This document shows positions 1 through 12,599 of a stretch of 64,000 nucleotides of DNA, in pieces; the stretch's first letter is position 1, and each line of letters starts with the position of its first letter. The notes below the pieces were generated by a model. That model ran no database searches. It was not told the DNA's origin and worked only from the letters and a program-made list of their open reading frames with translations. Made by a program: the position numbers and the translations under genes. Source of the DNA: Asanoa sp. WMMD1127 (GTDB lineage: Bacteria > Actinomycetota > Actinomycetes > Mycobacteriales > Micromonosporaceae); assembly GCF_029626225.1 (NCBI RefSeq), contig NZ_JARUBP010000001.1, forward strand, positions 1,240,001-1,304,000, read 5' to 3'.

Positions 1-242
1 CGTTGCTCAACTGCCACAGCGGCGAGGCGACCACGTGGCTGCGCTTCGAGGCCGCCGAGCGCGCAGCACTGTCCACCCACGACTATGTGAAGCTGTTCGA
101 GCTGGGCGCGCACCCGTTCCTCACGCTGACGCTGTTCATCGCGATGTTCGAGCGGGACTACACCGAGCCGCTGGCCTTCCAGAAGGAGTACGCCGTCCGG
201 CTCGCCCACTTCGACCTGCCCTACCCCGACATCGCGACATGA
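1..242 (+). CDS. C-terminal end of an unrecognised protein (5' truncated)
   Basis: The reading frame is open from the window edge to a TGA at 240-242, so only the last 80 or so residues are visible and the true start lies upstream. The fragment ends in a stretch rich in Phe, Leu and His (LGAHPFLTLTLFIAMFERDY) and looks like a folded, mainly helical C-terminus of a soluble enzyme. I do not recognise the family. Its stop overlaps the start of the next reductase gene by 4 bases (ATGA), so the two are very likely translationally coupled and may work in the same pathway. Confidence 0.6.
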   Translation, partial: LLNCHSGEATTWLRFEAAERAALSTHDYVKLFELGAHPFLTLTLFIAMFERDYTEPLAFQKEYAVRLAHFDLPYPDIAT

Positions 243-10937: not shown

Positions 10938-11726
10938 TTAGGACCGTTGGTGGCCTCGTTTGGCTGTCCACAGCGCTGCCCACTGCTCGGCGGTGAGGTC
11001 GCGGGGCAACGCGGTGGGCGACAGCCGGTTGGCGCGGAGCCACTCGCGAGCGACCGGAGCGGGTACGCCGGCCGAGCGGGTCAGGATCTCGCGCAGCCCG
11101 TAGCCCCGGCCGGTGAAGACCGCGTGCACGAAACGCTGGTAGGGCTCGCGTTCGGTGACCAGCGGCGTGTCCCGGCGGTGGGCCACCAGGAGCCCGCCGT
11201 CGACGGTCGGCATCGGCCGGAAGGCGCGTTTGGACACTCGGGAGTGGACGGTGAAGTCGAACCACGGCCACATCCGTGCGGTCAGCAGGCTGGCGCCGCC
11301 GATGCCGGCCCGCCGCCGGGCCACCTCCCACTGCACCAGCAGCACGGCCGTGCGCCAGTGCGGGGCGGCCAGCAACCAGCGCAGCGTGGCGGTGGTGATG
11401 TGGAACGGCACGTTGCCGACGACGACGCCCGGCCGGCCGGTGAGCCGGTGGAACAGGATGTCCTCGTTGACGACGGTGACGTGGGCCGGCGTCTGCTCGG
11501 CCAGCCGCTTGGCGCGGCGCGGGTCGACCTCGACCGCGGTCAGCGGGCGGCCGAGCCGGCTCAACGGCCGGGTCAGCGCGCCGTCACCGGGGCCGATCTC
11601 GAGGATCGGCCCGTCGGTCGCGGCGACGAGGCGGGTGACGTCGGTGATCACCGACCGGTCGACGAGGAAGTTCTGGCCCAGCTCGTGGCGGCCCCCGCTG
11701 GGTTGGCCCCGAAAGTGGCGAGACAT
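10938..11726 (-). CDS. erm: 23S rRNA (adenine-N6)-methyltransferase, Erm family
   Basis: A 262-residue Erm-type methyltransferase that would methylate A2058 of 23S rRNA and confer macrolide-lincosamide-streptogramin B resistance. It carries the family start MSRHFRGQPS, the QNFL motif at 18-21, SAM motif I EIGPGDGALT at 43-52, the acidic VEVDP (65-69), and the catalytic motif NVPF at 105-108, with a shorter-than-KsgA C-terminal domain. I chose the ATG at 11726 because it matches Erm N-termini and has GGAG seven bases upstream; a 13-codon longer frame exists. A leader peptide and hairpins precede it. Ten bases separate it from the WYL gene. Confidence 0.93.
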   Translation of the reverse strand: MSRHFRGQPSGGRHELGQNFLVDRSVITDVTRLVAATDGPILEIGPGDGALTRPLSRLGRPLTAVEVDPRRAKRLAEQTPAHVTVVNEDILFHRLTGRPGVVVGNVPFHITTATLRWLLAAPHWRTAVLLVQWEVARRRAGIGGASLLTARMWPWFDFTVHSRVSKRAFRPMPTVDGGLLVAHRRDTPLVTEREPYQRFVHAVFTGRGYGLREILTRSAGVPAPVAREWLRANRLSPTALPRDLTAEQWAALWTAKRGHQRS

Positions 11727-11833
11727 GTGCGTGCTCCGCGGGTGGGATTCGGAGCCGGGCAGCACGAAGGGGCCGCACCGGCAGCGGACCGGACGCGGCG
11801 GAGCTGAGCAGAGGAAGGTCGGATCAGCTCGCC
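11727..11833 (-). promoter_or_regulatory. Candidate erm attenuator (leader hairpins and Shine-Dalgarno masking)
   Basis: Directly after the leader-peptide stop, 11824-11833 can pair with 11797-11807 (GAGCTGA against TCAGCTC, extended by GGC/GCC with one bulge). A second stem, CGTGCT/AGCACG, joins 11730-11735 with 11761-11766 and covers the Shine-Dalgarno GGAG (11734-11737). The GCGGAGC around the Shine-Dalgarno (11733-11739) is also complementary to GCTCCGC in the first hairpin (11798-11804). Mutually exclusive folds that hide or expose the start site are the hallmark of erm attenuation. I cannot tell from inspection which fold is on and which is off. Confidence 0.6.
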
Positions 11834-11834
11834 G

Positions 11835-11870
11835 CTAGGCGATGCGGATCCGAATCGACATTGCTCCCAT
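11835..11870 (-). CDS. ermL: Putative erm leader peptide (11 residues, Arg-Ile-Arg motif)
   Basis: A short frame reads MGAMSIRIRIA followed by TAG, ending 108 bases before the erm ATG. Known inducible erm genes are preceded by such peptides, and one class of macrolide-dependent ribosome stalling needs an Arg/Lys-X-Arg/Lys motif, as in the MRLR of ErmDL. The R-I-R here fits that rule. No Shine-Dalgarno precedes the first ATG; a TAGGTT that could be a -10 box places the transcript start at or beside this ATG, so leaderless initiation is plausible. An internal ATG would give MSIRIRIA. Confidence 0.65.
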   Translation of the reverse strand: MGAMSIRIRIA

Positions 11871-11903
11871 GAGGCCGAACCTATCAGCGCGGGCAAGCGC
11901 TTT

Positions 11904-12575
11904 TCAGAGCACGCGGCGCAGCCACTCCTCGACGCCCGCGATGTGCACCGTCGCCCAGGAGCGGGCCAGCTCCGGCTGGCGGCTGGCGATCGCGTCGACG
12001 ATCGCCTGGTGCTGCTCGCGGGTGCGGGCGGCGGCACCCTCCTGGGTGAGGCCACGCCAGATGCGGGCCCGCATGGTCGGCCCGGACAGCCCGTCGACCA
12101 GGGAGGCGAGCACCGCGTTGTCGGTGCCGACCGCGATCTGCCGGTGGAACTCGATGTCGTTGGCGACGAGGGCCTCGATCGTCGGCTCGTCGCCCAGGTC
12201 GTCGAGGATCAACTGGAGCTTGTCGATGTCGTCGTCGAGCATCCGGTCGGCGGCCAGCGCGGCCGCGGCGGGCTCGAGCACCCGGCGCACCTCGAGGAAC
12301 TGCAGCACGGTGTCGTCCTGGTGGAAGTCGACCACGAAGCTCAGCGCGTCGAGCAGCATCTTTGGCTCGAGGCTCGTCACGTAGGTGCCGTCGCCCTGCC
12401 GCACGTCGAGCACGCGGATCATCGACAGCGCCCGGACGGCCTCGCGCAGCGAGTTGCGCGACAGCCCCAGCCGCTCGGCGAGGTCGGCCTCCTTGGGCAG
12501 CCGCGCACCCGGGCCGAGCTCCCCGGACACGATCATGCCCTTGATCTTGTCGATCGCCTCGTCGGTCAGTGCCAT
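11904..12575 (-). CDS. FadR-subfamily GntR transcriptional regulator (FCD domain)
   Basis: A 223-residue regulator. The GntR winged helix is at about residues 5-70 (GARLPKEADLAERLGLSRNS, REAVRALSMIRVLDVRQGDG), followed by an all-helical FCD ligand-binding domain with the metal/ligand histidine pattern (NDIEFHRQI, HQAIVDAI). The ATG at 12575 has GGAGGG 8 bases upstream; the GTG three codons earlier does not. It is the last gene of the sugar-acid operon and most likely regulates it, with a palindrome at the operon head (16062-16072) as candidate operator. Effectors in this subfamily are usually sugar acids. Confidence 0.9.
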   Translation of the reverse strand: MALTDEAIDKIKGMIVSGELGPGARLPKEADLAERLGLSRNSLREAVRALSMIRVLDVRQGDGTYVTSLEPKMLLDALSFVVDFHQDDTVLQFLEVRRVLEPAAAALAADRMLDDDIDKLQLILDDLGDEPTIEALVANDIEFHRQIAVGTDNAVLASLVDGLSGPTMRARIWRGLTQEGAAARTREQHQAIVDAIASRQPELARSWATVHIAGVEEWLRRVL

Positions 12576-12599
12576 TCCGCCCACCCTCCGCGATGAAAT

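Follow-up and report, generated by a model that had tools for sequence, protein, structure and literature searches.

The erm gene in the stretch of Asanoa sp. WMMD1127 DNA analysed here (64,000 nucleotides, called the window) is preceded by a very short open reading frame, and the question raised by this locus is whether that frame and the RNA following it form a drug-responsive switch for erm, and which other genes carry the same arrangement. An earlier note on this DNA had pointed to an 11-codon frame with R-I-R ending 108 bases before erm. The frame was located at 11870–11835 on the minus strand and reads ATG GGA GCA ATG TCG ATT CGG ATC CGC ATC GCC TAG (11 codons and stop), with 108 nt between its stop and the erm ATG at 11726. 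The features of the region are given below.

10938..11726, minus strand: erm, 23S rRNA (A2058) methyltransferase, 262 aa from the ATG at 11726 (NCBIfam NF000499)
11835..11870, minus strand: leader ORF MGAMSIRIRIA-stop, very probably leaderless (sequence; frame kept in six Asanoa; such leaders at 74/87 erm regions by a strict rule)
11844..11852, minus strand: Arg7-Ile8-Arg9 (+X+) motif, predicted stall site, Ile8 occupying the P site and Arg9 the A site (leader sequence; geometry from ErmDL, PMC8298421)
11878..11883, minus strand: −10 box TAGGTT, extended by TG at 11886–11885, 7 nt before the leader ATG (TANNNT in all six Asanoa)
11904..12584, minus strand: upstream gene for a GntR/FCD regulator, its stop 33 nt before the leader ATG (Pfam GntR 61.5 bits, FCD 86.3 bits)

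The erm product scored 260.7 bits against NCBI's broad Erm model NF000499 (cut-off 212) and was nearest to the Erm(46), Erm(38) and Erm(55) models, the strict cut-offs of which were not reached. The gene was present in 6/6 genomes of the Asanoa set examined. The leader frame was likewise conserved in all six, though the first ATG reads ACG in A. hainanensis (L005), and the loss of the frame in relatives that the earlier note had set against its own proposal was not seen. All six leaders end (S/N/F)-I-R-I-R-(I/L)-A-stop, with codon 4 being ATG in two, TTG in three and CTG in one. Near-invariant bases run from the Arg codons through CGGCGAGCTGATCCGA and recur further on in TCAGCTCCGCCGCG, and TANNNT with TG-N ahead lies 6–7 nt before the first ATG (before the ACG in L005). 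The window was compared with Rfam at gathering score and the leader element gave no match, the sole match being a c-di-AMP riboswitch elsewhere (ydaO/yuaA leader, RF00379, 60587–60717, minus strand, 83.7 bits).

Conservation was measured in 87 upstream regions of erm genes from actinobacterial genomes, leaving out the duplicates L084, L085, L087 and L088, loci L001 and L002, and L011 and L095–L099, which had no anchor (L011 has a leader ending MFCACFTRIRRS). Under the strict rule (R-X-R-x-x-stop, ATG or GTG within 20 codons, TANNNT at −14 to −11), a leader was found in 74/87 regions; the count averaged 0.02 and never exceeded 1 when the set was dinucleotide-shuffled 100 times, and no leader appeared in reverse complements (0/87) or control windows (0/912). 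When the −10 condition was removed, 78/87 regions passed (shuffle mean 2.92, reverse complements 7/87, control windows 20/912). A loose rule, applied with no start codon and no null ([RK]-X-[RK], at most two residues, then stop, in the 330 nt upstream), was passed by 84/87, and a [RK]-X-[RK] frame with a start codon in range was present in 82/87. The three regions that failed the loose rule (3/87: L026, L035 and L070) all still match the RNA model described below. Typical leaders are MGCTCFMRLRRA, MCCFACFTRIRRS, MCASAFTRTRRA and MQFCHSQARYMRLRRS.

Spacing from the motif to the stop is exactly two residues in 78/82 erm leaders and one residue in 4/82, and the middle residue of R-X-R varies (Ile, Leu, Thr, Pro, Phe, Asp and others). 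The first Arg codon is AGG in 44, CGG in 18 and CGC in 16 of the 82 loci, and the second is CGC in 73, CGT in four and CGA in one; these counts include L077, scored on a non-conserved frame (its conserved frame is MGITSIAVTKIRRH). This synonymous variation of the Arg codons indicates that the peptide is under selection.

An evenly drawn sample of the class gave a +X+ leader with a −10 box in 23/29 fetched loci, some of which repeat earlier loci, under a looser rule admitting up to five residues after the motif; L110 had the motif without the box, L100 had neither, and L117, L126, L127 and L128, having no anchor, were left unread. Four loci of the ErmE-like clade had no leader with a −10 box: L095, L098 and L099 gave no loose match, and L096 gave VTGGGRARP-stop, 283 nt upstream and without the box. 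The RNA model at E 0.1 found no match at L095, L096, L098, L099 or L128. At L108, where the gene resembles erm(38) (428.9 bits, cut-off 800), the leader is MSAATFFIRIRIA, and +X+ leaders with a −10 box precede erm(55) and erm(36). The script found no leader before erm(50) and erm(51), where reading by eye showed one containing F-G-R-L-R downstream of a −10 box; the RNA model gave no match at these two. In Rhodococcus gordoniae, the leader of an erm(46)-like gene shows E-F-R-R for R-X-R (by eye), and the locus matched the RNA model at 72.7 bits. Plasmid-borne erm genes with both leader and RNA-model match were found in Mycobacteroides (erm55), Micrococcus (erm36) and Trueperella (ermX, weak match).

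The absence of a Shine-Dalgarno (SD) sequence, from which the earlier note took a leaderless peptide to be possible, holds for the ATG at 11870; GGGAG lies in the window only 2 nt upstream of the ATG of codon 4, where an SD-led start would be conceivable. Among 79 leaders, TANNNT starts at −14 to −11 in 59 and an SD-like motif at −14 to −6 in three. When the strict rule was run on a longer region, the gap between −10 box and start codon in the 76 resulting loci was 7 nt in 55, 6 nt in 15 and 8 nt in six. WblC promoters of Streptomyces coelicolor are described as having transcription start sites mostly 7 or 8 bp after the −10 box (PMC7157823), and by these spacings the 5′ end of the leader would lie at or next to the start codon. 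Because the −10 box stands 6–8 nt before the start and SD motifs are rare, initiation at the leader is very probably leaderless. The ACG of L005 and the ATG, TTG or CTG at codon 4 make the first ATG a probable rather than a certain start in Asanoa.

The RNA from codon 6 of the leader to the erm SD was divided into six segments, as follows.

11838..11853, minus strand: segment A, leader codons 6–11, pairs with B (A:B z −5.1; pair probability 0.99 in free RNA)
11819..11835, minus strand: segment B, lying at the leader stop and immediately beyond it; partner A in the OFF state, C in the ON state (B:C z −6.0)
11788..11807, minus strand: segment C, UCAGCUCCGCCGCGUCCGGU; partner B in the ON state, D or F in the OFF state (folding, partner-permutation)
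11772..11782, minus strand: segment D, GCCGGUGCGGC, pairs with C or E (C:D z −4.3, D:E z −3.6)
11750..11765, minus strand: segment E, GUGCUGCCCGGCUCCG; partner D in the ON state, F in the OFF state (E:F z −3.9)
11733..11740, minus strand: segment F, CGCGGAGC, holds the erm SD GGAG (11737–11734) (sequence, partner-permutation)

Mutually exclusive hairpins had been proposed for this RNA and are present in the window. Hairpin 1 joins leader codons 6–11 to post-stop bases (UCGGAUC.GC.UCGCC / GGCGA.GC.GAUCCGA), hairpin 2 joins post-stop bases to UCAGCU.CGCCGC, and other stretches can pair with the SD region CGGAGC. Co-variation, which the earlier note had wished to see examined in relatives, was assessed by partner-permutation, in which duplex energies of native partners were compared with those of permuted partners in 31 representatives of less than 70% identity (2000 permutations). 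All five pairings between neighbouring segments beat permutation at the z values listed (0–2 of 2000 as good), and nine non-neighbour pairings in the erm set were no better than permuted, the nearest being A:F (75/2000). With composition correction, 18 representatives of less than 60% identity and C:E added as a control, the result was the same, C:D and E:F being weaker (12 and 11/2000). Related sequences and small alignment errors can inflate z in this procedure, and the non-neighbour pairs serve as its control. The frame is kept in relatives and the neighbour pairings co-vary; of the ideas in the earlier note, the Arg-X-Arg leader, the mutually exclusive hairpins and the leaderless start are supported by sequence comparison.

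Since each neighbour pairing excludes the next, they fall into two registers, A:B with C:D and E:F, in which the SD is hidden, and B:C with D:E, in which it is free. The five pairings therefore fit a toggle that would hide or free the erm SD. The alignments used were A1 (62 of the 82 leaders, 95–114 nt from erm) and A2 (30 of A1). Counted in fixed columns, 95.8% of cells were paired in the ON register and 93.8% in the OFF register, with few double changes; per-column co-variation is weak because many pairs hardly vary. A third pairing (C:F), between the first hairpin's 3′ arm and the SD, had also been put forward, and it stands only in part: it belongs to the lowest-energy OFF fold of the window (C:F around D:E), which differs from the co-varying C:D and E:F, and as a co-varying OFF pairing it was unsupported by partner-permutation across the erm loci, where E:F co-varies.

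Folding with and without a ribosome footprint on the leader, another of the checks suggested at the outset, lent partial support. In window RNA ending at the erm AUG, the free molecule formed A:B at 0.99 and left the SD unpaired at 0.00, the SD being held by C rather than E. With the ribosomal P site at codon 7 or 8, B:C reached 0.94 or 0.77 and free SD 0.48 or 0.24; free SD was 0.03 at codon 9 and 0.00 at codons 10–11. Given the value at codon 9, release would require a footprint reaching less far than P-site + 16, by a few bases. When the RNA was extended by 12 nt into the erm coding sequence, free SD was 0.15, 0.01 and 0.02 at codons 7, 8 and 9. In a 181-nt RNA, SD accessibility was 0.23 free and 0.21–0.27 stalled, and in a 200-nt RNA (53 nt beyond the AUG) it was 0.26–0.27 in every state, stalled or not. 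In 61 of 62 loci cut at the AUG (one having no recognisable SD), mean SD accessibility was 0.25–0.29 with the footprint edge at nt 27–33, 0.20 at nt 36, 0.15 in free RNA and 0.09–0.10 around the stop; L013 was near 0 throughout, L036 was flat and L089 had no peak. The predicted effect of the footprint on the SD is modest, peaking when the edge falls a few bases short of P-site + 16 at Ile8. The models predict release of the SD for RNA cut near the erm AUG only, and the expectation from the earlier note held for such RNA but not for longer RNA.

A covariance model of the element (126 positions, 12 pairs, 30 sequences) was used to search further genomes, and matched 24 places in 22/296 class genomes and 55 places in 53/354 family genomes; about 3.5 chance matches are expected at E 0.01 over 354 genomes. 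From both searches 53 loci were fetched, 25 further family-search matches being left out. Twenty-one of the fetched loci precede erm and 32 do not, and restriction of the element to erm was ruled out, since these 32 of 53 precede genes for ABC-F proteins (19), MFS transporters (12) or a GNAT acetyltransferase (one). ABC-F assignments were based on an NCBIfam scan (L151, L153, L155), a Pfam scan (L151, L153, L176, L180) or, for the rest, an in-frame GRGKTTLL; the MFS assignments were made by scan for seven, by tblastn for four (L172, L173 and L158 are MFS by tblastn) and by reading for L149, and that of GNAT by Pfam. L151, L153 and L155 scored best with ribosomal-protection ABC-F and TlrC/CarA/OleB/SrmB models, below the curated cut-offs, the genes being cut by the locus end. 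Two LmrA-like MFS genes scored 484 and 455 bits against the LmrA model (cut-off 850).

An upstream ORF (uORF) with a TANNNT box 5–9 nt before its start was found in 29/32 non-erm and 17/21 erm loci, and at 2/6714 control positions; its end was allowed to lie 12–33 nt into the match (the model's stop is at offset 18, offsets 14–21 were seen, and the −10 box is outside the model). The neighbour pairings were re-tested in 25 representatives of the 32 non-erm loci, where all five gave z of −2.8 to −5.7; the alignment of these loci was fitted to B:C and D:E, and A:B, C:D and E:F are absent from the model. In this set C:F leans native (z −1.95, 57/2000, with 25 representatives; z −2.84, 6/2000, with 30), as does B:D (z −2.4, 19/2000, with 25; 58/2000 with 30), and the contrast between neighbour and non-neighbour pairings is less clean than in the erm set.

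All 19 ABC-F leaders carry R-X-R (11) or [K/R]-P-W (eight), the stop always being separated by exactly three residues from the one in the A site (second Arg or Trp). Erythromycin-dependent arrest motifs obtained by in vitro selection were +X(+), XP(X), +X(W) and XP(W) (PMC6238534); R-X-R agrees with the first of these, and [K/R]-P-W meets both of the last two. Three leaders of LmrA-like MFS genes end V-T-R-(T/A)-(L/P)-R. Of the other nine MFS leaders, five have R-X-R in an ending of the SDRLRR or VRTRR type, and four (L147, L148, L149 and L154) have no such motif and read MPLTEEQAAL, VPESDDAAA, MPLAKELAAL and MPLAKDPAAL, the first two being devoid of any known arrest motif. These Arg-less leaders perhaps sense another drug, and drug specificity may follow the leader motif. 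On balance we favour, with some reserve, a single modular actinobacterial drug-sensor cassette, consisting of a leaderless uORF with an arrest motif 2–3 codons before its stop and a six-segment RNA toggle. Resistance genes of four or more kinds (Erm, TlrC/CarA-like ABC-F, LmrA-like or other MFS, GNAT) would have acquired this cassette upstream, with the sensor motif exchanged to fit the drug: R-X-R, [K/R]-P-W, R-X-X-R before LmrA-like pumps, and Arg-less motifs before other pumps that may sense other drugs.

For the window itself, the frame, its motif, the −10 box and the pairings were all found by computation to be conserved. From these we infer ribosome stalling, the response to drug and the switch itself, and on sequence evidence we put at about 0.8 the probability that a leaderless +X+ leader here governs erm by translation attenuation in response to macrolides. 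By this reading, and judging from the −10 spacing, RNA polymerase would start at or next to the leader ATG and ribosomes would begin on a leaderless message. In the absence of drug A:B would form, leaving C free and the erm SD in F hidden by E or C (OFF), and a ribosome at the leader stop would cover A and B, so that the SD stays hidden. A macrolide- or ketolide-bound ribosome would stall at Arg7-Ile8-Arg9 with A covered and B open; B could then pair with C, and D with E, and the SD would be released (ON). That a stalled ribosome would cover A and not B, and one at the stop both, fits the fixed distance between motif and stop. Cassettes of this kind in other actinobacteria, many of them with a different stalling motif, would act before ABC-F, MFS and GNAT genes.

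A different initiation, at codon 4 (ATG, TTG or CTG) through GGGAG or by read-through from gntR, is unlikely. The codons found at position 4 in the six Asanoa, the lost first ATG of L005 and the end of gntR 33 nt upstream speak for it, but GGGAG is just 2 nt from codon 4, and family-wide the counts of SD-like motifs (3/79) and TANNNT boxes (59/79) run the other way. The promoter raises a separate issue, since control might be mainly transcriptional, exerted there by WblC/WhiB7, with the leader a by-product or vestige. A WblC-type box (NAAANN-N3-TKGNNN-16..19-TANNNT) precedes the leader in 19/76 loci by the relaxed rule (null mean 0.05), the strict WblC/WhiB7 consensus (GAAAWY-3 nt-TKGMNN-16..19 nt-TANNNT) does so in 9/76, and WhiB7/WblC regulons are reported to include erm(41) and an Erm(O)-type gene (PMC10727445, PMC7157823). 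Yet the window and the 57/76 loci that lack a properly spaced box by the relaxed rule retain both leader and pairings, and we regard this explanation as rather improbable; dual control is possible where box and leader both occur. A canonical WblC box in the window was considered and rejected, AAAA..TTGCCC being present at 7 nt, not 16–19 nt, from the −10 box.

Transcription attenuation, in which a stalled ribosome would prevent a terminator from forming as in whiB7, msrD or hflXr, is common for ABC-F genes (PMC10201436, PMC12421871), the gene type at 19 of the 53 fetched loci. In the window, however, no terminator-like site (hairpin and U-run) was found in 11650–12000, a scan to which Rho-dependent effects are invisible, and the last co-varying pairing, E:F, involves the SD of the downstream gene; we hold this mechanism to be a shade less probable than control by WblC. 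An RNA structure with no functional peptide, the frame being accidental, is very improbable. The RNA is more conserved than the N-terminus of the peptide, and the RNA element persists at L026, L035 and L070 although R-X-R is missing from its usual position, as would be expected of such a structure; set against this are the Arg residues kept through synonymous codons, the variation of X and of the N-terminus around a fixed motif and stop distance (78/82), the −10 box at the leader start codon, and the [K/R]-P-W swapped in at the same position in ABC-F leaders.

The translation attenuator preferred here was compared with known systems. The earlier note had not recognised the peptide among described erm leaders, a separation that does not stand, for it belongs to a family that includes the annotated leader of Erm(X) (WP_011152926.1, Trueperella pyogenes plasmid pAP2), labelled 'erythromycin resistance leader peptide' on that plasmid. 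Erm(X) is of the same Erm clade; its leader, MLISGTAFLRLRSNR, has R-L-R, its ATG follows a −10 box at 7 nt, and the RNA model matches weakly (26.8 bits), but the peptide sequence is unlike and R-L-R lies three residues, not two, from the stop. Because it shares R-L-R and the placement of the −10 box, one member of the actinobacterial leader family can be taken as already known. ErmDL had been cited, as MRLR, for the known case of the motif; the stalling motif there is Arg6-Leu7-Arg8 (PMC8298421). ErmDL and other +X+ erm leaders of Firmicutes share the Arg-X-Arg arrest motif, the ribosome halting when X occupies the P site and the second Arg the A site (PMC8298421); here the leader is apparently leaderless, the stop follows 2–3 codons after the motif and the switch begins right at the stop. 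The likeness is drawn at the level of the motif. The +X+ motif of ErmDL was critical with the ketolide telithromycin and less so with erythromycin (PMC8298421).

In attenuators of the ErmB and ErmC type, as here, a stalled ribosome frees the SD by a hairpin swap (ermB, PMC11264731; ermC, PMC6685928), whereas the present element has six co-varying segments and A:B takes in the last codons of the leader. The hflXr/rli80 attenuator of Listeria likewise has an RLR leader before a non-erm macrolide/lincosamide resistance gene (PMC6310831), but acts by transcription attenuation and belongs to a Firmicute. The whiB7/wblC attenuator is also an actinobacterial uORF that senses stalled ribosomes (PMC10727445), and differs in its Rho-independent terminator, in an SD about 10 nt before the uORF (PMC4128351) and in having a transcription factor as its target.

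A 2024 survey of erm upstream regions concluded that neither uORFs nor palindromes are conserved universally and that their origins were independent, some uORFs forming families (PMC11264731), and a 2014 paper treats erm(37) of Mycobacterium tuberculosis as an exception to uORF control (PMC4128351). In the large actinobacterial Erm clade studied here, uORF and palindromes are conserved as one unit, and the erm genes of this clade are predicted to be switched by the same device, apparently through leaderless initiation. No description of this actinobacterial leader family was found in a search of open-licence literature, and an earlier report is possible. The leader type appears unusually widespread, being common to several kinds of resistance gene, and it links natural leader motifs with arrest motifs from in vitro selection. 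A leader may also reveal the drug answered by a neighbouring uncharacterised pump or ABC-F protein, and the RNA model allows a search for further members.

Several individual loci depart from the usual arrangement. L052 (Streptomyces poonensis) has tandem leaders, MYAYAVAAMARTRRP and then MCAIAVTELRRF directly before the attenuator, with a −10 box before each (the second by eye), and T-(D/E)-(F/L)-R-R replaces T-R-X-R-R in L070, L130 and the second leader of L052. The K-L-R-R leader of L026 (Streptomyces sp. AcH 505) has lost the usual stop, so that its frame runs on for five more codons; the RNA model matched at 69.9 bits. The erm leader of L035 (Actinomadura atramentaria), MCAFMMVTRPWSAVRGLPF, has R-P-W, the motif of eight ABC-F leaders. 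Before the GNAT acetyltransferase gene of L174, the element at 1501–1616 has the leader MTFLCCCAAAGRTRRS. The erm match of L107 / L157, in an actinobacterial genome, has one internal TAG, yet the leader MTASMRLRTA is kept.
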